DNA of 64,000 bases from Pycnococcus provasolii (taxonomy: Eukaryota; Chlorophyta; Pseudoscourfieldiophyceae; Pseudoscourfieldiales; Pycnococcaceae): the NCBI GenBank assembly GCA_938743325.2, contig OW568896.1:124001-188000 (forward strand), written 5' to 3'. Positions 20,443-58,444 of this stretch are shown here, one piece after another (position 1 is the stretch's first letter; each line of letters begins with the position of its first letter). A model generated the notes under the pieces. The model saw only the letters and a list, made by a program, of their open reading frames with translations, did no database searches and had not been told where the DNA came from. Position numbers and translations under genes: made by a program.

Positions 20443-21285
20443 CTATTGCTGCTTGTTGCCACAACCTCGCCGACGAAGTGACGTCATGGATTCACGTGAT
20501 GCAGCACTATGGCAGTAGCACCGCCGTCGTCTTGATTCGTGCTCTCGCACCGATGTTGCATGCGCGCTCGCCGGTGGCTCGTGAGGCCACGGGCACATGG
20601 AACGACCGTCCGAAGTTCGAGCGGGGCTCCCATGTGCGCTCGTCGTAACCCAGCCATTTGACGCGATACTCGGCGCGGCGTGTTTGGCGGTTGAAACGGC
20701 GTGCCTGACGAGCTCCGACGCGGGCGTGGTGGGCGTCGACGCGAAGTCGGGCATCATCACCTCCACACCCTGCACTAGGAACGTCGTCCCGGTGCTCGCC
20801 CCGGTGTCGACGGGCGTACCTCGTGGTGGCGACGGCAAGCAGCTTTCCAGCGACTTTAGTGCGTCCCCGCACCTCTCCCACTGCGCGTGCAGTCGGCGCA
20901 AGTCGCCCTGAATGTTGGTTGCTGCGTCGGCCAAACAGGTATCCACTTCGAGGTCGTGGTGTAGCGCATCATACTCCTTGCAGGTGTCGAGCAGTTCGCC
21001 GAGCCTGTCGTAGACCCTTTCCACCGCAGCCTCTTCCGGGCCGAGGGTCTTGGGCAGCGGAGTGCCCGGGACATCCGAGATCACATCTGTTGCTTGCGAC
21101 AGCGTTGCTTCGACATCGACGCCGCGCGCCAACGCCTTCTGCAGGGCGCTCTCAGCGGCCGCGAAGTCGTCACGAGCGGCAGCAACCGCCTTTTCGGTTC
21201 GCGTGAAAGCGCGTTGCGCGCGCGGTGAAAGAGGGTGCGAAGTGGTCATCACTGGTTGAGGACGAAACGACGTGTCTCGCTCCAC
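20443..21285 (-). mobile_element. Broken Ty3/Gypsy-like (chromovirus) remnant with chromodomain
   Basis: A chromodomain-like block (EYRVKWLGYDERTWEP at about 20605-20695) on the minus strand resembles the chromodomain at the integrase end of chromoviruses. A neighbouring stretch (about 20700-21240) looks coding and helical, with many Glu, Ala and Arg. No reverse transcriptase, intact integrase core or paired long terminal repeats are visible. The element is broken and incomplete, with at least a couple of breaks. About 94 bp beside the chromodomain recur at 34722-34815. A decayed host chromodomain gene is an alternative. Confidence 0.35.
20504..20597. repeat. Dispersed ~94-bp repeat, copy 1
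   Basis: Matches 34722-34815 in the same orientation with only a few mismatches (shared core GCTCTCGCACCGATGTTGCA). Lies next to the chromodomain-like block. Confidence 0.85.
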
Positions 21286-31416: not shown

Positions 31417-34416
31417 CTACGCGAAATATGACCCGAGCGTCTCCGGAGTCGTTCGCTTCTCCACGCCCAGCCGGCGCCTCTTCGTAAGACGTGCGTGCAA
31501 GTCACGCGTCGCCGATGCGTGGCACGGCGTGCACAGTGTCCTTAGATTTTCGAGCGTACACTCTCCTCCACCTTCAGCAACCGGAATGATGTGGTCAGCC
31601 TGCCAAAGCATGCCCTCGTGAATCTCTGCACTCTTGGCGATGGACGACGCGCTGGCGGACGGGAATCCAGATGAGCGAAGCAGACGTTCGCGAGCGTGCA
31701 CCGAGCCAAGAGCCCGGACGTCACCGTGCAATTTGTGGCAGTCTAAGCCGCAGGACTGGCACACACCCTTCTCAACCGCGAAAAGCTGCTTCCGCGCCTC
31801 CCCGGCATCCGTGAGCAGCCGTGCCATCTTGTAGCACTGCTCGGAGCAAAATGGCTTGCCATTTCGGGGCATCGTCGACATCGCAGCGCCGCACGTCGCG
31901 CACTGTGCGCATGTCGCGACCGCTGTCGTTGTCGACGAAGGCGCTGCTGCCGCCGATGCGCTGACATTAGCACCCAAGCTGCGACTGACAAATGCATCCA
32001 TCTTGCCAACGCGTACCGTTGATCCGCCACCACCAGCAGCCTCGACTGCGCCGACCGCTGCACGGTGTGGAGTTGATGCACTTGCGGCACAAGAGGAAAG
32101 GTTCGTGTTCATACCCACGAGCACGCCACTTGCCGCGACAGCTGCTCGCACCTGCGGCCTGTGCGAGAGCCACTTGCGAGCAAAACGTTTGCATGCAGCT
32201 GCATCACGTAAATCGCGCAATTCAGGAGGTGGAATATCCGTCTCATCGTCGGCAGCTGCGGCGGTGGCCATCGCCGACAATCGCCATGCCGGCGCATCCT
32301 CGATCGTAAAGCTTCCCAGCACGGTTGCATCTTTCCACAATGCATCACGCGTGCCAATCGCAGAAGCGGCGGCGTTCGTGTCAATCGATGCAACGAAGCA
32401 CCGCCCCGTGTGCATGCTCACATCGAATGCATACGTGCGTGCACCGTCCACCGACGCTGCATCCATCGTCGTGGCAGTATCATTCACCTTGACACAATTT
32501 TCGTCGTCGTCGCCAATGACGATGACGTCGTCGTCGCCGTCGTCGCCGTCGCCATCGATGACGACTACTTCCTGGTTATTCTGCTCATTTGCGTTGTGAG
32601 ATGCGTCACCCGCCGCCTGCGAAGAAGACGGGAGAGTGCCCCCACACGCTCCACCATCGTTCCGAGCAGTGGCACTCCCCTTCGCTTTCGCATCCCTCCT
32701 CGTGAAGAACGATCGAATGTCTTCATTGTCGTAGTGCACGCGTAGTGAGACACCTCCGCCACCGCTGCCACGATTACGTTTCGTCGCGAGATGGTCAGCG
32801 CCAGAATCGCGACTGCATTCACCGTACGCTTTGCGATGCCATCGCATGAACTGCGACACCAGTCCACCACCGTCGCCGTCGCCGTCGATGTCGAGCACAA
32901 CACCACCAGCGTCATCGGGTGCGGCAACGTCCGCAGCCTTGAGCGAGGCAGCCGCGCCGTCCACGCAAAGTCCTATCGTCTGCAATTTTCGACTGAGCGT
33001 TCGCCACATGAAGTTGTCAAGGCTATTTTTTAAGCAGACGTAGCGTATAGTCACCCCAGAAGCCTTCTGTCCTATGCGATGAACGCGATCCTCCGCCTGC
33101 ATCAGTACGGCGGGAACCCAGTGCAGCTCCGCAAAGATGACATCGTGCGCTGCCGTCAGTGTCAGCCCTTGGCCCGCCGCCGTGACGCTTAGCAGCGCAA
33201 CTCGACACGCAGCATCAGTTTGAAAGCGTTTGCAGCGCTCGAATCGTTCCAGGGAAGGCGTGGTTCCGTCGATCCGAATGAAGCCAGTCACGATGCGCAT
33301 TGCGCGAAACGCGCCTTCGAGATTGTCCATCACCGCACGATGGTGAGCAAACACCAGAAGCTTGCTTGTGCCGCCCTCGAGCAAGTCTCCGACCAGCGCA
33401 GCGGTGGCACTCACCTTCGCGCTGCCACCGCTCATGTATGCCTCCATCAGAGCCGTCAGCAGCTCCTTCCGCGCTTCGCCATTCGAAGGATTCCTCATGC
33501 ACTTTGAGCAGAGGTTCTGCACAGCGACCTCGGAGGTTTCCGACGCACCAGCCATGTTCGGCGGCGCATCAACGCCAACGCGCTGCCTAGTCTTTGGAGG
33601 TAGCTGATCTAGTACGTTTTCCTTGAGACGTCTGACGAGGAAACTTCGCTTGAGGATGTCGTTCAGCTGGTCGAGATTCGAGCCGCCCGAGATGTCCCAT
33701 CCCCATTGTTGTTTCTTGCCGTTGCAGAAGTGCTTGGCAAACCACGTGTGAATTGTGCGTCCGAAAGCGCCCGGCATGAGAGCGTGTAACTGACACCACA
33801 GCTCCGCCGGACGGTTTAGCGCCGGCGTTCCGCTGAGCAATAGCACGCGCTTTGCGCGTTCGAGCACGGGAAGCAGAGCCTTGGTCCTCTTAGCTCTGTC
33901 ATTCTTAATGCTATGGCTTTCGTCCGCGATGATGCACTGAAATCCACGTGCTTGCACCTGCGTAGCAATGTTATCCGAGCAGAGCAGGCTGTACGTGACG
34001 ATAGTGACGAGTTTTTGAGGGTCCACTATGGCGTCGTTGTTTCCGTCGCGCACGACATTTAATGCCGAGCTTCGGCACACGCCTCCGGCAACCACCCACT
34101 TTTCCCACTCGTCTACCCACGGCCAGCGCATGCTGGACGGCACGACGATAAGCAGCGGCCAGCAGTCACGGTAGGCGCACGCGAGCGCCAGAGCCTGTAT
34201 TGTCTTCCCGAGTCCCGGCTCGTCTCCCAGCAGCGCGCGTCCTTGCAGATTCAGGCACGCCTCCACGCCAACTTTTTGAAATGGCATGAGCGCCGTTCGT
34301 AGTTTGTTCGGCACGGAGAGTATGCGCCGCTTCATCTCTTCTTGCTCCGGCGGACGCGTGGAGTGCGCGAGGAGTTGCTGCACGGGCGGCGGAGGCGCGT
34401 CCTCCGCCTTCGCCAT
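31417..34416 (-). CDS. ZRANB3: ZRANB3-like SNF2 helicase with C-terminal HNH nuclease
   Basis: A 999-residue structure-specific helicase/nuclease of the SMARCAL1/ZRANB3 branch, which remodels stalled replication forks. The helicase has motif I GDEPGLGKTIQ, the DESH box (IIADESHSIKND), and motifs V-VI SVTAAGQGLTLTAA and QAEDRVHRIGQ. Near residue 563, NEDIRSFF fits a PCNA-interacting (PIP) box. A Cys cluster (CAQCATCG, FCSEQCY) and VEKGVCQSCG lead to the HNH motif WQADHIIPVAEGGG, LRTLCTPCH. The last residues PETLGSYF are another degenerate PIP-like motif. The order matches vertebrate ZRANB3 apart from a missing obvious NZF finger. ATG 34416 chosen; the frame above has TTG only. Confidence 0.93.
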   Translation of the reverse strand: MAKAEDAPPPPVQQLLAHSTRPPEQEEMKRRILSVPNKLRTALMPFQKVGVEACLNLQGRALLGDEPGLGKTIQALALACAYRDCWPLLIVVPSSMRWPWVDEWEKWVVAGGVCRSSALNVVRDGNNDAIVDPQKLVTIVTYSLLCSDNIATQVQARGFQCIIADESHSIKNDRAKRTKALLPVLERAKRVLLLSGTPALNRPAELWCQLHALMPGAFGRTIHTWFAKHFCNGKKQQWGWDISGGSNLDQLNDILKRSFLVRRLKENVLDQLPPKTRQRVGVDAPPNMAGASETSEVAVQNLCSKCMRNPSNGEARKELLTALMEAYMSGGSAKVSATAALVGDLLEGGTSKLLVFAHHRAVMDNLEGAFRAMRIVTGFIRIDGTTPSLERFERCKRFQTDAACRVALLSVTAAGQGLTLTAAHDVIFAELHWVPAVLMQAEDRVHRIGQKASGVTIRYVCLKNSLDNFMWRTLSRKLQTIGLCVDGAAASLKAADVAAPDDAGGVVLDIDGDGDGGGLVSQFMRWHRKAYGECSRDSGADHLATKRNRGSGGGGVSLRVHYDNEDIRSFFTRRDAKAKGSATARNDGGACGGTLPSSSQAAGDASHNANEQNNQEVVVIDGDGDDGDDDVIVIGDDDENCVKVNDTATTMDAASVDGARTYAFDVSMHTGRCFVASIDTNAAASAIGTRDALWKDATVLGSFTIEDAPAWRLSAMATAAAADDETDIPPPELRDLRDAAACKRFARKWLSHRPQVRAAVAASGVLVGMNTNLSSCAASASTPHRAAVGAVEAAGGGGSTVRVGKMDAFVSRSLGANVSASAAAAPSSTTTAVATCAQCATCGAAMSTMPRNGKPFCSEQCYKMARLLTDAGEARKQLFAVEKGVCQSCGLDCHKLHGDVRALGSVHARERLLRSSGFPSASASSIAKSAEIHEGMLWQADHIIPVAEGGGECTLENLRTLCTPCHASATRDLHARLTKRRRLGVEKRTTPETLGSYFA

Positions 34417-45075: not shown

Positions 45076-45402
45076 TCACCTTACCGCGCCTCGAACAACG
45101 CGTAGAGATTCACACAGGCCCGCAACATCGACGCGAAGGCGATTGGCTCGACGTAGCGCTTCTGCCGCTGCACCGAGATTGGGCGCGGGAAGCTTCTCAC
45201 CACCCGCAAGGTGCACCTGCGCGGTGTCTATTGGCGTCTCAGCGAGAGAGCCACGCGCGAAGACGCGCTCCCAGAATGACGCGGCGCTATGGGATCGCAA
45301 CGCCTTGAAGAGCGTCACGGCGAGCTCCGCGTTGGAGACGGTCCACTCCCACGTGACATACGAGTCAACGTCGTATGCAAGCTCGCCGTCGATAAGTGTC
45401 AT
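45076..45402 (-). CDS. Hypothetical small protein
   Basis: A 108-residue minus-strand frame from ATG 45402 (MTLIDGELAYDVDSYVTWEW). Codon use is like neighbours and the composition is globular, not repetitive. No family recognised. It converges on the transporter gene, 36 bp apart. The frame is also open for 17 codons upstream of the ATG. Confidence 0.45.
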   Translation of the reverse strand: MTLIDGELAYDVDSYVTWEWTVSNAELAVTLFKALRSHSAASFWERVFARGSLAETPIDTAQVHLAGGEKLPAPNLGAAAEALRRANRLRVDVAGLCESLRVVRGAVR

Positions 45403-45479
45403 GTCGCCGTGCTTCACCACGAGCCTGCGTCCGCGCGAAACGGTGGCAGACACATGTGCACCCTTTCCCGAGGTTGGGT

Positions 45480-45525
45480 TAGGGTTTTATTGGAGAGGAA
45501 GGGCTACGATAGGGTTAGGCCTGCC
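45480..45525. repeat. TTAGGG-like motifs upstream of the DRM gene
   Basis: GGTTAGGGTTTTATT and ATAGGGTTAGGCC, telo-box-like, 60-100 bp above the methyltransferase ATG. Confidence 0.5.
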
Positions 45526-45582
45526 GTGCTGCCTGCTTTGCTCCCCACCTCCTTTGCCCCAGGGATTCGACCAATCTTTTTC

Positions 45583-45865
45583 ATGAAGGAGGAGGCGGAG
45601 ATGTCGCGGCAACCGCAACCTCAACCGGGTACCTTGTGGTACGAGTTGACCGTCATGGAGCAAAAGAAAGACGAGGAAAGAAGGAGGGAGGAGGAAAAAC
45701 AAAGCGAAGAATTTATAAAAAAAATACAGCAGGAGGAGGAGGAGGAGGAAGCGAAAAAGAAGAGGGACGAGGCGGCGTCGATCGCGCTCGCAGAGAAACT
45801 CCGCGAGGGGTTTTTGAGGGAAGATCGCGAGCGGATGAAGCAGAGCACGAAGGAGGAGCGTGCGA

Positions 45866-45905
<40 letters not shown>

Positions 45906-47631
45906 CGACGACGACGATGAGCACGACGACGACGACGACGACGACGACGAGGACTCAGACTCGGACTACAGTGTCCAACGAAAGCGGCAAAGGGTAGGCG
46001 CTGGGGCTGGGGGCCGGACCGCCGTGCCACGCCGTGCCGCCGCTCCGGAACAACGCCGTGGCGCTGCTGCTGCTGCTGCTGGCGCTGGTGGTGGCATTGC
46101 TGCTGCTGGTGGTGGCGCTGGCGCTGGTGCCGCTGGTGGTGGCGCTGGTGGTGGCGCTGGTGGTGGCGCTGGCGGTGGCGCTGGTGGCGGCATTGCTGCT
46201 GCTCCTCCTCGTGTTGGTGCAGGTGCTGGGGCACCGCCGCTTTCCGCCGCTTTTAGGCAATTCATGATGCCTGAAGCGTCCGCTCAGGCTGCGGCAGCAG
46301 GTCTCCTTCCTGCCGATCCGATTCCTGAGTTCATGCCGATCGAAGAAGCGTTGAAGGTCGAAGCTGAATTCAGCATCGATGAGTACGACGCGACGACTGA
46401 GGATGAGATGCAGCGTGCAGTGAACAAATTCGCGAATTGTGGGTACAGGCTGACGCTTGACCCCGGGATGGAGCCTCCGTCAACACCTCGGCCGAAGATC
46501 CGCTCGCCGCTCTTCATCGTGGAGCAGGTGTTTAACCCGGACAAATTTGGCTTCACGATCATCAGGGCTTTCAAAGACGAGCTGGAAATGGGCGAGTCCC
46601 CTATTTTCGTCAACAATGGCCGGATGTTCGGACAGGCACAGCGGCGCCGAGTATTTCCGACGAATGTGCGACGCATCGGTCCATTGAGCCAAGCCGAGCC
46701 TGCCCCAGGAGCGCCAAGCACAGTGCAGGAGCTGTGTTTCTGGCCTGCCGACAAGGAGTGGCCAAGTTGGTGCCAGCAGGTATACCCTGAAGGCAAGGCC
46801 ACTTCTGTGGTGCACACAAAGCAGGTCCAATCATGGATCACGCTGAACACGGAGTGCGTGACGCCGCTGAGGGAATCGCACGATCCGTTCAAGGCGGTTT
46901 ACGACGCCAAATTCCAGAAAAACGCGGTGAAGTATTGCCGGAAATTTCATTATCTGCCGGACGCGAACACAGGCCTGCCACGTGTGATGACGAGGCAGGA
47001 GGCACTCACCTTAATGGGATTTCCACTGGACCATTTTGGCGGCGTGCAACTCTCAGATCGGCAGGCACTTGAGCACATCGGTGAGTCCTTTTTGGTTCCG
47101 CAAGTCACGCACATCTGCAAGGGAATCCGCAATATGCAGGACGCGAATGAGTTCGCCAAGAAGAACGTCGTCGTCGTCAGCCTATTTGGAGGGATTGCCG
47201 CTGACGCCTTAGCTCTCAAGCGCGCCGGAGTGCTTGGCATCACCAGAGTGGTGTACTGTGAGAAGGATCGCCTGAAAAGGCAAGTCGCGAAGCTGGTTTG
47301 GAAAAAGCATTTTCCAGAAGCATCGTTTGAGCCGTTTGAGGGCAACAATACACTGAAGCCTGACGAGGCTGGCAGCATCCTGAACATGCCGAACGAAATC
47401 TTCGAGGACCTCGTGAACGAGACGCATGGCAACGGAGGTGACATAGTGGTGATTGGCGGTAGTCCTTGTACTGAGGTGTCTTCGTTCAACCGCACAGCGT
47501 CTGCCTCGTCTCACTCATTTGAGAGAGGTGAGAGCGCGTTGTTCTACAGGATGGCCAGTATAATCAAGACAATGTCCTCACATAAAAAGGACATGATCAT
47601 CAACGATTTGGAAAAGAGCACACATCGTTGA
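45583..47631 (+). CDS. DRM: DRM-type (domain-rearranged) DNA cytosine methyltransferase
   Basis: A 682-residue C5-cytosine methyltransferase in which the conserved motifs are circularly permuted, as in plant DRM enzymes. The order here is: a possible motif VI (VEQVFNP, about 312), AQRRRVFPTNVRR, WPSWCQQVYPE, motif IX-like LTLMGFPLDHFGG (about 478), motif X IGESFLVPQ (about 500), then motif I VVSLFGGIAADALALKRAG (about 531) and motif IV GGSPCTEVSSFNR with the catalytic Cys (about 625). It ends soon after SALFYRMASI, as DRM proteins do. DRM2 performs de novo methylation guided by RNA in plants. The N-terminus replaces UBA domains with a charged coiled coil, an Asp-rich run and a Gly/Ala run. 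ENV is apparently EQV. Confidence 0.88.
45867..45953 (+). repeat. GAC repeat encoding poly-Asp in DRM
   Basis: A nearly pure GAC/GAT run, coding for more than 20 Asp with two Glu-His and Glu breaks, followed by EDSDSD. Confidence 0.95.
46060..46205 (+). repeat. GGT/GCT-rich tandem encoding Gly/Ala tract in DRM
   Basis: Repeated GGTGGTGGCGCT-type units encode GGGAGGGAGGGAGGG and related Gly/Ala sequence between the acidic run and the catalytic part. Confidence 0.9.
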
Positions 47632-47872: not shown

Positions 47873-48397
47873 AATCGCGCATTTCTCTCCGGATTGTGCG
47901 GTGCGGTGGACCCGCGAGCACTCGCGCTCTTTTCACCGCTTGAGCTGAGTCGTCTCATCAGCGGAGATGAGGATGCACGAGGACGCGGTTTTGACGTCGA
48001 CGATCTGGCCAAGCATACCGAGTACAGCGGAGGGTACACTGCGCAAAGTCGCACCGTGGCGATTTTTTGGCGCGTCGTTCGCGGATTGAGCGCGGAGCAG
48101 AAATCAAAGCTTCTCGTGCTCGTCACTGGATGTCCTCGCCCTCCTTTGTTGGGGTTTGCGCATCTCCAGCCTCATTCATTTCGATTGCACAAGGTTAGCA
48201 CGGAATCAGCCGGTGCGATTGTGAGTGCCATGCTCACGCGCGCGGGACTGAAGACAGACATTGCGCGTTTGCCCACAGCGTCAACTTGCTTTAAACAACT
48301 CAAGCTTCCGAACTACAAAACGGAGGCGCAGATGCGGTCGAAGCTGATGAGCGCGCTGGATGCGGCCGGAGATGGCTTTCATCTGTCATGACATTTT
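47873..48397 (+). pseudogene. Inverted partial copy of the HECT ligase 3' end
   Basis: Reverse-complement match to 37316-37840, the last 170 codons of the HECT gene plus its stop and a few bases beyond. The frame is open from 47894 to 48391 and keeps the HECT Cys block (STCFKQLKLPNY). A handful of changes separate the copies (MFVTG to VLVTG, AFRLH to SFRLH, FNQ to FKQ). With no HECT N-lobe it cannot be a full ligase; expression of a 165-residue C-lobe cannot be excluded. Confidence 0.9.
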
Positions 48398-48435: not shown

Positions 48436-50505
48436 TTACGCCTTCGCGAGGTTCGGGAAGTACTTGTCGAACTTCGCGTCGGGCATAGGCGGTAGGTCGA
48501 GTTTATTCTCATTTAAAACGCGCTCCAACTCCTCGCATCGGGCATACGTCCGCACCCAAAACTCCGCGTGCGCACGCACGAGGTGCTTCCACACGATGCG
48601 CCAATAATCTCCGCCGTAGTCGACGACAATCTCTTCATCCTTAGGAATCCGCCTCGATGCGGCAAAGACGACAACGGGAAGCTTGCGCTCGTCGTCCCAC
48701 CAAAGCTCCGCGTGGCAATTCACGTCCTTTTCGCCACCCTCGCGCATGAAGCGACAATTGGCGAAGCGAGCTTTGCACGGGATCGCCTTGTTTTCCACAA
48801 GCAAACTTGGCCCGTCATAGCCGGCAGCAATCAGTCCAGTGAGGTCAATATCGTAAGCGTAATGATCTGTGTGCGGGTCGACATCCCCCCGCTCGCTCGC
48901 GTTAGCTAGCGTTTCTCCTGCCCATAAATTTCCGGCGTACACCTCCACGACGTCGCCCATCTCAAGCTCGCGTGCGGCGATTAGACCGTAGGCCTTGCTA
49001 TCAGGCGGTGTAAAGTATCGGCACGGGTGCGGCACGTATTGGACCTCAACGACATGCGTGCGGTCGTCTTCGTCGTAGCCCCTCAAAATCGCTAACACCT
49101 CCGGCTCGTTCTCCACCATGTGCCAGCCGCGTAACTCTAACTTCTTTGGATTCACGTGTTTGAGCTTATCCAAGACATCGGGTTCTAATTGCTCGACGTT
49201 GTACTGGTTCTCGTTCTCCAAGCTCAGGCCCATGCTCGTGTACACATCCTTCGCGTCAACCACCTCAAGCCCTTCCTCCTCCGTCATGTGCTCGTACATC
49301 TTGATGCGCTTCTCGTCGTGCGCAGGCGGGAGGTCGCCGGCGTACTTGATGCCGTCTCGAGGATTTTCGCCAGCTGGGAGATAATCGTTTACGCCACAAT
49401 ACCCCCGCGAGCACGGGTCAAAATATAGAACGGAGTTCCTCAGCTTCTTCACCCGCGCCTCGATGCGCGTCTCGTCGAGGCCGTTGAGACCGTGCGATGC
49501 CGACTTCAGGATATTCAGCCACCTCCAATACCATAGACTCGTCTCTGCCTGGTTGGTGAGATAGCGCTCCATCATTGGCATCCACGCATCCGGTCCCCAG
49601 TCCACGAAAAGTTGCTCTCCTTTTTTTACCGCTCGCGTCGTGTAATAGGCCAGGTTTGGCATCGCCCTCTCAGTACAAAAGACCAAGAAAGCTCCCATGT
49701 TGCACATCGAAGGCACATAGTAATCCTGCGCCGCCCACAACGGATCATTCACGACCCGAAATTGATTGCCATGCGCTGTGCAATCTATACGCATTTCTGG
49801 GATTTTGTGATGCTTGAGTGAGTCCACACCCTTCCATAGTTTAGATTCGACATGTGTCGAATGCAATCCCAATAAAGAGTCCCCCATCCTTTCCTTGAAC
49901 TCCTCCTCTGTCGTGGCCACGCCCGTCTCCACGCCGACGACGGCGCTGGCGTCCATGTCGACGGCGGCCTCGAGCGCGTATGCGTATCCGTCGTCTCCAC
50001 GTCCTTCGCTCACAATGCGACAACGGCAATTTGTCTTGGCGTCTTTGAGAGCTGCCAAGAGGAAGCGGTGATTCGTGACTCGTGGCTCGTGACCCCGCAG
50101 CGATATCTTTCCGGCGACATCTTGCCAAATGACCAAGTAGCGGTCTGATGTCTGTTTGGCAGCCGCTTTGAATATATTTTTTATTGGCTCTGGGAATTCG
50201 CTCTTGAGTGCTGTTTGTGAGCTCACTTGGAATCCCTCATGACTCGCGACCACACTCACATCCACCACGCGATCCACAGTATCGTCCTCGTCCTCGCTAG
50301 TATTTTCGTCGTCCTCAGTATCAAATGAGACTAATCGAATGCCCAACAACATGGGCGACGGCGACGATGACAGCGACGACGATGCGCCGTCCTTCGTCTG
50401 AGCCTCACGCAACTGCACACCTTTCCACGGTCTCCGCGTCGGAAGCTCTGTGCGTGGCGCTTTACCTCCAGTCGACTTCTGCGCAGTCATTTTGGTCCTT
50501 GCCAT
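48436..50505 (-). CDS. SET-domain protein with a histone H3-like N-terminal tail
   Basis: A 689-residue protein starting MARTKMTAQKSTGGKAPR. After removal of Met it gives A-R-T-K at the N-terminus and keeps the H3 residues K4, K9-S10 and K14-A-P-R17, with Q5 changed to M and R8 to Q. An acidic linker (FDTEDDENTSEDEDDTVD) follows. Residues about 440-620 form a SET domain: GLIAARELEMGDVVEVYAG, ARFANCRF where RFxNH is usual, and DEEIVVDYGGDYW. A diverged SET-like copy lies at about 150-300 (GNQFRVVND, KKGEQLFVDWGPDAW). A lysine methyltransferase role, possibly on its own tail, is inferred. The start ATG is the only one placing the tail. It converges with the HECT fragment, 44 bp apart. Confidence 0.85.
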   Translation of the reverse strand: MARTKMTAQKSTGGKAPRTELPTRRPWKGVQLREAQTKDGASSSLSSSPSPMLLGIRLVSFDTEDDENTSEDEDDTVDRVVDVSVVASHEGFQVSSQTALKSEFPEPIKNIFKAAAKQTSDRYLVIWQDVAGKISLRGHEPRVTNHRFLLAALKDAKTNCRCRIVSEGRGDDGYAYALEAAVDMDASAVVGVETGVATTEEEFKERMGDSLLGLHSTHVESKLWKGVDSLKHHKIPEMRIDCTAHGNQFRVVNDPLWAAQDYYVPSMCNMGAFLVFCTERAMPNLAYYTTRAVKKGEQLFVDWGPDAWMPMMERYLTNQAETSLWYWRWLNILKSASHGLNGLDETRIEARVKKLRNSVLYFDPCSRGYCGVNDYLPAGENPRDGIKYAGDLPPAHDEKRIKMYEHMTEEEGLEVVDAKDVYTSMGLSLENENQYNVEQLEPDVLDKLKHVNPKKLELRGWHMVENEPEVLAILRGYDEDDRTHVVEVQYVPHPCRYFTPPDSKAYGLIAARELEMGDVVEVYAGNLWAGETLANASERGDVDPHTDHYAYDIDLTGLIAAGYDGPSLLVENKAIPCKARFANCRFMREGGEKDVNCHAELWWDDERKLPVVVFAASRRIPKDEEIVVDYGGDYWRIVWKHLVRAHAEFWVRTYARCEELERVLNENKLDLPPMPDAKFDKYFPNLAKA

Positions 50506-53185: not shown

Positions 53186-56100
53186 CTAAAACTGTGTTAG
53201 GATGTCGGGCATAACCTCCTCGTCTTCGAAGGTAAAACCTTCGACTCCGATGCCGTAGCTTATTTCCTTCTGCTTCGCAATCAGACTGTGCGGATTGAGA
53301 TTACAGCTGGCAAAGCTCGAACGCTTCCGTAGTCCTAGGAATACCAGAAAGTGATGCCACAGGCCCAAGCGAGAAAACCAATTGTCATACACCTGAATGT
53401 TGATTAGAAGGTCGCGAAAGGCAATACGCTGGGAATTTGTGCTTTCTTGGAGGAGCCAATTCAACAGCGGTGCACGGTCAGCTTGAACGACTAGCTTACC
53501 CAAGTACGATCGGCGCCCATGCTTGGTGAAAGTCTCATTGTCAGTATTGTGGCGCTCGAAAACCATATACATCCTGTTGATGGCACTCGCAAATTCTGTT
53601 ATTTGTTTTGTTTTTTGAATCATGTGAGAAAAGGTTATGTTGGTTGCGTTGAGTTCCGTTTATGCAAGTTCCTTACCAGCAACCTCATGCTCACTTGTCG
53701 TGAGAATGTAGTCGATGATACTCGGATTTTTGACAAGACTGCGGAGAAATACGGCGCGGTCCGAGTACGAGTAAATTCCCAGGTCTCCGTCGTCTGCCAT
53801 GTGTGGTGAGACCCATTGGTCGATCAGTGCGGCCTTTACTATAAAATCCTTCATCGATTGGTCTTGTTTAAGCGCATAATCCAGCCAACAAGACAAAGCT
53901 AAGCTATTGATCGTTGACGTAAGCTCACCAGCTGTGCTAATCAACATACGCTTCCGATAATTAAGCTCTGCCACCACTTTGCTCCTATCTATGATTACCG
54001 CACGCTTCGTTGGCACCATCGTATGACGGCACTGGGAATGGATCCACGTCATGGCTCTTTCGTTCAGGCTGCTAGCGGGACCATCGTCCTTGGCATCGAA
54101 AATATTCGAACATACATTTTCAACTTCCTTCTCGTTCAAATACGTCAAATTGTACAAGCCGGACGCGATCTCTTCTACTGTCAGAGTTCCCGACCTGTCG
54201 GTATCCAGCATCATGAAGAGAATCTCCGCCATCATGGTCTTACGTCTTAATATTTCCCTCAAGAAGTCACTCGCCTCGTTGGCAGTAATGTGTCCGTCAC
54301 TATTGACATCCATCAGTTTCATGAGTTCCTCTGCTGATTTGAATTCACTGTGCAACACCAGCGACAGAGCCATCCAGGCCTCCGCAATGTGATGGACAAA
54401 GTTCTGAGCATTTATCTGTTGTAGCAATACGACGCGTGCTTGCCTCACAATTACGACTATAGAGACTGCGATGGCAGCAACCGTGGATATGAGAAGGAAG
54501 ACTGTGATGGCGTGGCGATCCGATTCCGTCACGTCCTGGTTCATGTAAACCGAACCACACATCAAGTAGACAGCGGTTATGATCAGCATGAATGAATCAA
54601 CAAAGTCTACCTCTGGCATCAAAAACGGGCGGTAGAAGTACTGAAGACATATGGCCAAAATCAAGAAGATCACACCGATCCAGAGCTGAATGTATGGCTT
54701 TTCCGACGCGAAAACTACGAGTAAGCAAAATACTAAGCGGCGAACGAGAAAGAGGATTGGCCACCACCAGAAGTTGGCCTCATATGACATGTACAGAAAG
54801 CCCCATTGCTTCAGCACCTCCGGCTTGTGTAGCAAATTTTCACGATGTAGGCTCCACAGTTTCCAGCTCAAGTAGAGGGGGGTGCCCACAACATATATTG
54901 GTATGGCCACAACCGCGCCGCCAATCAACGCATGATGCCTTGACGAGCCACACGCAACGTCCGGTGCGGCATTGAGGAATCTCTGTCCATCGGACATCTC
55001 TGTGCACATGAATGCACTAAATGCTTTGATGCATATTGCGTTGTATACAATCACGAGCAGCGTTGCGCAGTTTCGTGTAATAGAATGTGCAGCAGCCGTC
55101 AGGCTCTCGTTCCGCATCTCTTCGGTTATAACATCTGTAGAGCGCATAAGGCGGAGCTTCTTAATGATGTACAAAAGCGAAGTGATGCCAAGTGTTATTA
55201 AGGGAAGCATATATGTGAAGTAGGTACTAATGACGTAATCCCAGGGCAAAATGCACGCCGGCGATAAGAAGTCCACATCGAAATTTACGATTGCAAAAAC
55301 ATTTGTTAGGACGCGAAGATCCTCTGGCCAAGGAATGCTGAAACTTTGGATGATGTTGACAATCTGCATGAAGAGCAATGTGACGTCGAAGCATTCGTAA
55401 CGCGAGGCTGCAATGGCATTTGTTTGAAGCCAAATGAGGATCACCACCGCCCAGCCTGCAATGGTTACTCCAATAGAAGCGCCGGAATCCTTTCCGAGAG
55501 GGCATTTCAAGCAGTAGCCACCAACATTAAACCAGGCGTCTTTGCACTGAATGCATAACGCGTTTCGCTTTGACTCTGAGCACTCGTAAATGTTTCCAGG
55601 ACAATCTTCTTGATTTGGGCAGTCGAGGAACAGCTTTGGCAATTCCCCGAATCCAAAGTCGTCCTGCGTTGGTTCTGGTTTCGGGATGCTGTTATCGCGC
55701 TTGAACGGAAAGCCTGCTATAATATGTACAGCTGAACCCTCTGGTCCGAATTTATCATTTGTTGTAGCATTCAGCATTTTCGTCTTAGTCCAAAAGCCGT
55801 ACTTTGGCTTGGGCATTGTAACGCGCTTGATATGTGTCGACGCATCGCAGATTGCGCCTTCGGGGCATGCAATGCAAGCAGCACCCTCAACGCCATCTGG
55901 TCGCCAGTATCCCTCCGCGCACAGGCATTCACTTATCGAGACACCGCCTTGCCCGAGCGGTTTGTGCGTGTGAGCTGGGCACTGCTTGCACATCCGTTGT
56001 CCTTCCTCGTCTTGATACTTGGCACCTGGCTCGCTGTTGCAAGGGATGCAATTGTTCGAACGCTCCTGATTAGTGGAGGTGCCGACAGGGCAGGGCGTAC

Positions 56101-58444
56101 AGTCGCCTGTGGTCATATTAAGATACGTTCCAGGCTGACAAGGTTCGCACTTCGTTTGTCCAATCTTTCCAAACGTTGACGTACCACCGGGGCATGTCTT
56201 GCATCGGTCAAGACCTTCCACGTCCGAGTACGTATTGCGTTCACAGGGATAGCACGATTCAAGCCCTGACACATTCGCAAACGTTCCCGGGGCACAAGGT
56301 GTGCACTCGCCTACTGTAAGCCCAGCACTGCTGCTGCCTGGATCGCATGCGTCAAGGCACTGCTCCCAACCAAGAAGCTCACAGCGCGCGGCAAAAAGCT
56401 TTGTCGCATTTGAAAAACGAGTGTCCGCTTGATACGGTGCCGTTTGAAGCATGTCATTTGCGTCAGCAAGCGCGTTTGCAGAAAATGCTGCCTGTGCGAG
56501 CACGACCACGGGCCAATACCCCTGAAGATACGGTGCTGTTAGAATGACGTTCACCAGACTCGGGTGCGTGAGAGTATCCTCATTCGAGGGCATGTCAAAA
56601 CCCACGATAGGAAGCAATTCCGAGCTACCATTGCCACTGTCTACTAGCTGGTTCGCGGCAAGGGTTGCAATTCGCGTCAAATGGCCGCTGATCGCCAACA
56701 TGCCCACGATTGGCACAGTGCTGTCTGCAGCCGCTTCTCTAAGCACGCGCGATGCGTAGCTTGGATTTGTGCCATCCACGCCGATGACTTCCATGCTTGT
56801 CCCGCGAGCTTCCAATACTTCTGCTGCACCATCACATCTGCGGCGTTCACCTTCATCGTCTGCTTCTGAGCTATCTTTTATGCATAACACCTTCCCACTG
56901 CTGGACGATGCTGACAGCTTTCGTAATATTTCCGCGCCTGCAAGTCGCCCTGCATCATGTGGCGGATACCCGACGAAAAGATCGGTACTCGTCTCCACGC
57001 CCTGCGCAGGCGAACCAACTGTGACAACCTTGATGCCAGCCTCACGCGCCTCCTTGAGCTTTTTCACGAATTCGGCAGTTGGTGCGGTGGATATGATCCC
57101 GTAGGGCTTTTCGGCGATGGCGTCGTCGAGGTCCTTCAGGCTGGCCTTTTCATCACCCAACTCGCGAAACTTGATGCTAATCTCAATCTTCTGGTCTTTT
57201 GCGCCCTGCCGCAGGCCATCGAGCATCGACCGCGTTGCGGGGATTCGCGTTGGCGAATGGCTGACGGCAACAATTTTCTTTGACGACCTAGCGATGCACT
57301 TGCACCCTTCTGGTTGCTCTAGTACCGGTTCGCGATCCTTTGTGGGCGCAGCCTCGCCGCAGAAAAAGACGCCGCTGGATTCGCACTTCTTCAAGTCGAC
57401 CGTGTCTATGGTTATGAAGCCCGGCCCAGTGTTAACAAGTCCGCCCTGAAGATTCGGCTGGGTGCGTAGCGCAGTGGTATTTAGCGTGGCGAGGTAGACG
57501 ACAGGGAGATATCCCTGCAGATACTGCTGCTGGTCGATGCTAAACGCGACATTTCCATCCTTCATGAACTGCGCTGTGTCGGCGTCGAAGTCGAACGTCG
57601 CGTAGAGTGTGCTGGCGCCGCGACTTGGATTTTCTTCTCTCCACTTTCGAATCGCAGGAGTTGCAGACGCGCTGTTAAGTGCAAGAATCGCGTCAAGCTC
57701 TGCATCCTCTTCAAAGGCTTCGCTCACCGCTCGATATATGCTCTCAACGCTTCTCGCGGTGAAAATCAACTTTGTCGGAAGTGCGGCAGCGCACCCGTCA
57801 GCGCGGTCGACAAGCGCGGAATTTGCACCGCTCTCGATGTCGATGACCAGCACCTTTTTGGCACCCAAAGATTTGAAGCGCTCGCACCCCTTCGTGCCGG
57901 CGTATGATTCCACCTGTCCAAAGTGCGCGAGCAGGCCAAGTTCCTGAAAATTGTCGCTTCCGCTGTTCAGCGACACGACGGGTATTCCAGCCGCCACGGC
58001 TGACTTGATCGCCGGCCCTAGGGTGTCCACGTCAGGCAACGAGATGGCGAGGCCGTCAGGTTTTTCGGAAACGGCTTGCTCGATGAGTTTCCTCATGGCG
58101 TCGAGGTCATAACCTTCCTCGTTAACGCGGTAACTGAGTTCGACGCCCAAGTCTCTTGACGCACGCGTGGCGGCGTCTTCCACCACGCCCCAGAAGTTGT
58201 TCGCGAACGACCCGTGCGTGACCATGATGATTTTGGCGTGCTTACGATACAGGCAAGGGCACGTGTTCGTCGCGTCGTCGGGTTCGAACTGCGCGGATGG
58301 TGGTGGCGGCAAGGCGCAAGCGCCGTTCGTATTCACCAAGCCAGGCACGCACAGTGCTTGCGTGCCGAGCCCGAGGTGAAGTATCGTCGTGCTCACTAGA
58401 CATAACCACAACGGCACGCGTGTTCGTCTGCCCCAAACGGGCAT
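53186..58444 (-). CDS. Large sensor receptor: two periplasmic-binding modules, GCC2/3 repeats, membrane domain, EF-hands (two exons)
   Basis: A predicted 1725-residue type I multipass receptor. Signal peptide (VPLWLCLVSTTILHLGLG) then two LacI/ribose-binding-type Peripla_BP modules (about 70-330 with IIMVTHGSFANNFWGVVEDA; about 390-660 with GKVLCIKDSSEADDEGERRR). GCC2/GCC3 Cys-rich repeats follow (about 710-870; GTFANVSGLESCYPC, GTSTFGKIGQTKCEPC). Roughly seven or more spans lie at 985-1320. Two canonical EF-hands come next (DVNSDGHITANE and DTDRSGTLTVEE), then a helical tail. Exon 1 ends at 53677 at GCTG|GTAAGG; intron 53596-53676 (81 nt) ends AACAG; exon 2 is 53595-53186. Without splicing the frame stops after GKELA. 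Role as a small-ligand (sugar or autoinducer-like) sensor linked to calcium is inference. It is divergent from GGPPS. Confidence 0.82.

Follow-up and report, generated by a model that had tools for sequence, protein, structure and literature searches.

A near copy of the histone H3 tail heads a SET-domain protein and several otherwise unrelated non-histone proteins of Pycnococcus provasolii

Why would a protein with a SET domain begin like a histone? The question is raised by a gene in the window, the whole stretch of 64,000 nucleotides of Pycnococcus provasolii DNA that we analyzed. The protein encoded there (the SET protein hereafter) starts with MARTKMTAQKSTGGKAPR (Table 1). Comparing its residues 2-18 (ARTKMTAQKSTGGKAPR) with the tail of this genome's own H3 (ARTKQTARKSTGGKAPR), we found 15 of the 17 residues after the Met to be identical, the two changes being Q5M and R8Q; the original prediction had given the same count and the same changed residues. 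K4, K9, and K14 are all present. A weaker H3-like match continues past residue 18 to about residue 30 (19 of 30 residues identical, the Met included). The likeness begins at the first residue after the Met, with A-R-T-K, and the A-R-K-S/T motif of the G9a/HP1-type H3K9 mimics is absent from the SET protein, which has AQKS. The ORF reading agreed with the earlier placement of the tail on the start ATG: the frame is open for 711 codons, with no ATG, GTG, or TTG upstream of that ATG.

Table 1 Places of the features discussed, in the window (plain positions) and elsewhere in the genome (contigs C, loci L). E values are those against the genome's own H3 tail.
Feature	Place	Strand	Tail	E value	Remark
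H3-tailed SET protein, 689 aa	48436..50505; contig C36	-	MARTKMTAQKSTGGKAPR	1.7e-4	single open frame from first in-frame ATG
H3-tail copy, residues 1-18	50452..50505	-	MARTKMTAQKSTGGKAPR		start of SET protein
SET domain, residues 506-631	48613..48990	-			Pfam SET, best stretch
First, diverged SET-like unit, ~residues 235-304	49594..49803	-			below Pfam cut-off alone
525-aa cysteine-rich/coiled-coil protein	contig C14			3.0e-7	
2878-aa SMCHD1-like ATPase	contig C24		MVRTVQTARKSTGGKAPS	0.0055	
245-aa cysteine-rich protein	contig C30		MARARKMARKSTGGNAPR	0.013	
SET-gene scraps, 74-137 bases	L002:1507-1643 (C38), L003:1508-1594 (C43), L004:709-782 (C23)				98.6-100% identical
H3 variant with shortened tail	C21:614890 (L013/L047)		MARSKTVARKVTGG		soon afterwards GGVKKPHRYRPG
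Chromodomain-like match	20615-20701	-			in 153-codon frame at 20510-20968
SNF2 helicase	31417-34416	-			C-terminal HNH nuclease domain
DNA cytosine-methyltransferase-like ORF	45289-47631	+			0.8 kb from SET gene
HECT ubiquitin-ligase part, C-terminal	47894-48391	+			N-terminal part absent from frame
1594-aa protein	53660-58444	-			

The H3 likeness of this N-terminus is beyond chance. Searching PDB sequences with the SET ORF, we obtained 150 distinct matches at E ≤ 10 (best E 7e-4), and the best 60 of these 150 were all H3 peptides, H3 proteins, or H3 variants, Cse4 included. In the reverse direction, a six-frame genome search with the genome's own H3 tail reached the SET gene (Table 1). Within the SET protein, none of 1000 shuffled tails equalled the score of the real one. 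Tails were also scored over 2541 distinct M-started 31-mers from 391 kb of sequence, comprising the window and a set of loci, some of which overlap and 12 of which belong to other assemblies. The SET-protein tail scored 92, and 60 shuffled tails reached at most 44. An assembly artefact had been named beforehand as a case against the prediction; the gene lies well inside a contig of 486,817 bases, so it is no contig-end artefact. A further claim had been that RPWKGVQLRE resembles RPGTVALRE of H3 and that the fusion arose from an H3 gene with its middle lost. Shuffled sequences were as good in 1076 of 2000 cases, and in 1576 of 2000 for the wider stretch of residues 24-60. We rejected this remnant, and the loss of an H3 middle is unsupported because the likeness is no better than that of shuffles.

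The SET domain of the SET protein is diverged. Pfam SET matched the whole at 44 bits (cut-off 22.4) and the C-terminal unit alone at 29 bits. The first SET-like unit alone gave 18.7 bits against the same cut-off and covered profile positions 46-105 of 105. Thus, of the SET domain and second diverged SET-like unit announced earlier, the former stands and the latter holds in part, being sub-cut-off by itself. By reading, the Asn of what we take to be the usual NHS motif is kept, its His is replaced (ANCRF), and the presumed DYG tyrosine is kept. The best PDB sequence match, at E 7e-4, likewise marks the SET domain as diverged. No relative of the SET protein was found at E ≤ 0.001 among the 8000 candidates scored from a large protein collection. 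In viral contigs, one stretch was counted as encoding a relative, which is possibly this genome itself. The genome has 45 SET-profile matches at E ≤ 0.01; among the 30 of these 45 that were compared, the closest to the SET protein were weak (E ~0.01). With residues 1-45 alone as the query, restricted to proteins of 0.55-1.75 times the query length, there were 11 candidates and one match at E ≤ 0.1, a Haematococcus gene model in which two H3 units flank an EF-hand part.

A search of the genome (32.3 Mb, 46 contigs) at E ≤ 10, for which residues 1-45 of its own H3 served as the query, led to eight places: three histone-cluster H3 genes with identical tails, one H3 variant on C21, and four non-histone frames, namely the SET protein and three further proteins of 525, 2878, and 245 residues. 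Each of the four non-histone alignments starts from query residue 1 and from the first Met of its frame, and the four genes are unlinked, each well inside its contig. The proteins begin with A-R in three cases and with V-R in one. The A-R-K-S/T motif is present in the three tailed proteins other than the SET protein, and the 525-aa tail also retains the second ARKS site, AARKSAP. Taken singly, two of the four matches (E 0.0055 and 0.013) are weak. The H3 tail heads several otherwise unrelated non-histone proteins of this organism. Only the best candidates were scored; therefore, four is a lower bound, and the tailed genes number at least four. Searches with the tails of the tailed proteins yielded no further genes. 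The histone tails searched were those of H3 and H4. A 45-residue H4 tail at E ≤ 10 led to three places, all identical to the H4 tail, and to no H4-tailed non-histone protein. In viral contigs, none of 35 pattern matches was confirmed as a relative of the H3 tail, and none of 31 as a relative of the 525-aa protein.

Other H3-like stretches were met in these searches. In prokaryote assemblies, 372 stretches matched the pattern, and 12 (L087-L098) were confirmed as relatives of the H3 N-terminus. Ten of the 12 were read. Eight open with an H3 tail, of which five continue as H3 and three (L093, L095, L097) are short pieces; the other two are a diverged H3-like frame (L094) and a weaker one (L098). 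No non-histone fusion was seen among the ten, the short pieces being too short to judge, and all ten look like stray eukaryotic DNA in contigs filed as bacterial. Within the genome itself, the H3 variant on C21 has a shortened tail (Table 1). Two near-identical H3-like genes (L014 on C28 and L015 on C38) have, instead of the H3 tail, one rich in glutamine; our guess is that they encode centromeric H3.

What do these tails sit on? The Pfam Histone family matched none of the four tailed proteins (2611 of the 2878 residues scanned in the largest). By their domain matches, two of the four belong to known chromatin families, the SET protein and the SMCHD1-like protein. The latter resembles the SMCHD1 family in its S5 domain (97.4 bits against a cut-off of 27) and its ATPase domain (25.2 bits against 25); an SMC hinge scored 13.1 bits against a cut-off of 22.5 in a query lacking the last 267 residues. 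Among the 8000 candidates scored, 64 homologues were found at E ≤ 0.001, the best named ones from green algae (mostly 31-37% identity) and then from animals, mainly fish. The H3 motifs tested are absent from every one of the 64, and all of them align only from query residue 232 or later (median subject residue 49). The H3 tail and the roughly 230 added residues have no counterpart in any of the 64, which marks tail and linker as an N-terminal addition, judging from these alignments. A number of these gene models seem truncated at their N-terminal end and are less informative, but none of the rest has a tail either. Past residue 19, the H3-like extension of the SMCHD1-like protein is weak (70 of 2000 shuffles as good). 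In the 525-aa protein, a likeness to H3 beyond residue 31 was considered and rejected (541 of 2000 shuffles as good). No Pfam family exceeded its cut-off in the 525- and 245-aa proteins. A small cysteine-rich module is common to the two (31% over 99 residues; E 7e-11 pairwise and 0.001 as a genome-wide query), and because of it their tails may go back to one event.

The original prediction had suggested that the SET protein may be its own substrate. As a substrate or pseudosubstrate, the tail would enter the protein's own active site and be methylated or inhibit it. Tail and SET domain do lie within one protein, and the tail offers K4, K9, and K14. This reading leaves the SMCHD1-like and cysteine-rich tailed proteins unexplained, as these three gave no match to Pfam SET (the query for the largest stopped 267 residues before its end); the divergence of the SET domain also speaks against it. 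We regard it as quite unlikely. Equally troubled by the same tail on three proteins lacking a SET match is the notion of a decoy, by which the tailed proteins would draw readers or erasers away from H3 and thereby free chromatin of them. It is in keeping with a near-full tail at the N-terminus and with the replacement of K4 in two of the four tails. A decoy must be abundant, however, and in the H3-tail search each tailed protein had one genome place against three H3 genes. We hold the decoy to be improbable, and more so than self-methylation.

The tails were compared residue by residue. K9-S10-T11-G12-G13 shows no change at its 20 positions across the four tails, against 14 changes at the 48 remaining positions of residues 1-17 (Fisher P 0.007; permutation P 0.004 for this block and 0.04 for any block of five), although the block may in part be a search effect because word-based searches favour intact runs. 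R2, A7, and P16 are also unchanged in all four. K4 is replaced in two of the four tails, as is K14, and residues 3-6 and 14 account for 10 of the 14 changes. ARKS is kept in three of the four tails, against AQKS in the SET protein. The residues kept thus point, as far as sequence can tell, to K9/S10 and not to K4. The emphasis originally placed on K4 finds no support, because two of the four tails lack it and K9-G13 is intact in all. R8Q is expected to weaken recognition by G9a/SUV39-type enzymes. The SET protein may therefore be no substrate of a K9 writer, and the four tails need not share one fate.

The same pattern bears on a simpler use of the tail, as a tag for nuclear import or for a histone chaperone, in which basic charge would count and the exact sequence would matter little. 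H3 tails can act in import, all four tails here are basic, and import by a basic tail fits several of the facts as well. Such a tag has no need for S10-T11-G12-G13 and P16, which are kept in every tail, and the confinement of most changes to residues 3-6 and 14 is not what it calls for. We consider import unlikely, but it is the hardest rival to exclude without an experiment.

How old are the tails, and where did they come from? Within the first 20 residues, we compared synonymous codons with those of H3 wherever the residue itself is the same; the expectations for independent codons are approximate, as they were drawn from three genes of the window, one of them the SET gene. The SET gene differs from H3 at 11 of 15 codons (10.3 expected) and the 245-aa gene at 9 of 12 (8.8 expected). 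The SMCHD1-like gene is intermediate, with 7 of 15 (9.7 expected, P 0.10). In the 525-aa gene, no more than 3 of 14 codons differ (9.1 expected, P 3e-4); this gene thus descends from H3 DNA, and its tail, to judge by these codons, is H3-derived. In the SET gene, the synonymous codons are saturated; therefore, it is the peptide and not the DNA that was kept. The lost DNA-level trace and kept peptide of the SET and 245-aa tails argue for selection on the peptide. The descent from an H3 gene proposed earlier is thus borne out for the 525-aa sister, and the trace in the SET gene's own DNA is gone. It is possible that tails arose by convergence and not by descent, or spread from one tailed gene to another; whether each came directly from H3 or from another tailed gene is a conjectural part of our proposal.

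Pieces of the SET gene lie in three other contigs (Table 1), and close to them is a repeat of about 440-520 bases common to these places. In L003 there are, in addition, about 290 bases with 95% identity to DNA that lies ~1.2 kb away from the H3-variant gene; this may simply be a further repeat. From the scraps it follows that small gene pieces move in this genome, and such movement could offer a way for tails to be captured. The scraps might also be taken to favour an accident, in which the tails are functionless products of recent fusions or of assembly errors. The saturated synonymous codons beside a kept peptide in two genes (SET and 245-aa) stand against this, as do the position of all four cases at the first ATG of long frames well inside contigs and the lack of any such case for the H4 tail in the same search. 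We judge an accident very improbable, the least probable of the rivals.

We propose instead that the H3 tail was recurrently reused in this organism as an N-terminal docking tag for readers or writers centred on K9/S10, with a probability of roughly 0.5; the docking is what we infer. Once each tailed protein had lost its start Met, its N-terminus would be free, H3-like, and probably disordered, with R2 and A7-x-K9-S10-T11-G12-G13-x-x-P16 at its centre. The cellular proteins that write or read the H3 tail, chiefly at K9/S10, would modify or bind this tag as they do H3. As a result, all four tailed proteins would be brought to the same chromatin or complex. Candidate partners are encoded in the genome. 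One is an SRA+SET protein with no pre-SET match in its frame; we take its arrangement to be that of the SUVH H3K9 methyltransferases. Others are five frames that between them have six chromodomain matches marked as above the cut-off. The SMCHD1-like protein, with a built-in K9-like tail, could reach directly what its mouse counterpart reaches via LRIF1 and HP1; mouse SMCHD1 is described as coming to H3K9me3 indirectly through these two (PMC4628070).

The window holds other features besides the SET gene (Table 1). In the DNA cytosine-methyltransferase-like ORF, the end of the Pfam profile (224-322 of 324) matches residues 514-613 at 25.7 bits (cut-off 22), and motif I-like and then IV-like stretches follow at residues 633 and 723, an order that is presumably that of the plant DRM enzymes. 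This ORF may belong to the same silencing pathway. The HECT piece (profile 170-306 of 306, E 4e-41) is either a gene fragment or a last exon. The chromodomain-like match scored 24.5 bits alone and stands at the cut-off of 25.1 with its neighbours; a 268-aa ORF in another frame at that site has no domain match. The SNF2 helicase with its HNH domain has an arrangement that we take to be as in ZRANB3. The 1594-aa protein combines periplasmic-binding-protein domains in two stretches with ephrin-receptor-like repeats, a TRP-like membrane part, and EF hands.

Systems of a similar kind are known, and the match of a SNAG domain to H3 is short. The tails described here resemble the SNAG domain of Snail1 and the AKER tail of Sgo1 in their position at the extreme N-terminus and in being H3-like from residue 1 (PMC12612597, PMC9253516). 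The N-terminal H3-like SNAG domain docks on LSD1 (PMC12612597) and the free H3-like N-terminus of Sgo1 on Survivin (PMC9253516). The H3 match described for Sgo1 has four residues (PMC9253516), whereas the tails here run from 17 to about 30. Their shared core is K9-G13, and not residues 1-4. Like the G9a/GLP H3K9 mimics (WIZ, LIG1, and others), they have ARKS in three of four cases and a silencing context. In contrast, those mimics are short motifs, searched as 10-residue segments in a study that lists 171 human H3K9-mimetic candidates (PMC10611923), and here most of the tail is present and N-terminal.

An engineered protein has a similar build. CHARM, a fusion of the H3 tail to Dnmt3l, has an N-terminal H3 tail of up to 30 residues, a linker, and a chromatin effector, and a tail of 30 residues gave a more potent effector (PMC11875203). 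The tail serves there as an N-terminal ligand; the fusion activates DNMT3A, and its authors infer that a free N-terminus is critical (PMC11875203). CHARM is engineered and depends on unmethylated K4 (PMC11875203), whereas the tails here are natural and K4 is not conserved. In the accessible parts of the open-licence literature, we found neither a natural protein that bears an entire H3 tail nor a genome encoding several such proteins. The original statement that known H3 mimics are much shorter agrees with that literature, which gave short mimics and one engineered fusion.

Four unlinked genes of one genome, each encoding 17 to 30 H3-tail residues, would be evidence that the greater part of a histone tail has been reused in nature to target proteins, and the tailed proteins would be a natural counterpart of an engineered epigenetic editor. 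They would also amount to an evolved test of the docking residues apart from the nucleosome, in which K9-G13 and P16 are kept and K4 and K14 are free. In such organisms, an antibody raised against an H3K9 or H3S10 mark may also recognize proteins other than H3. More tentatively, at somewhat less than even odds, we suggest that the H3 tail is a movable tag, copied over time onto several unrelated chromatin proteins and read and written by the histone-code enzymes as nucleosomes are. If this is true, the histone code would extend to non-histone proteins with whole tails.
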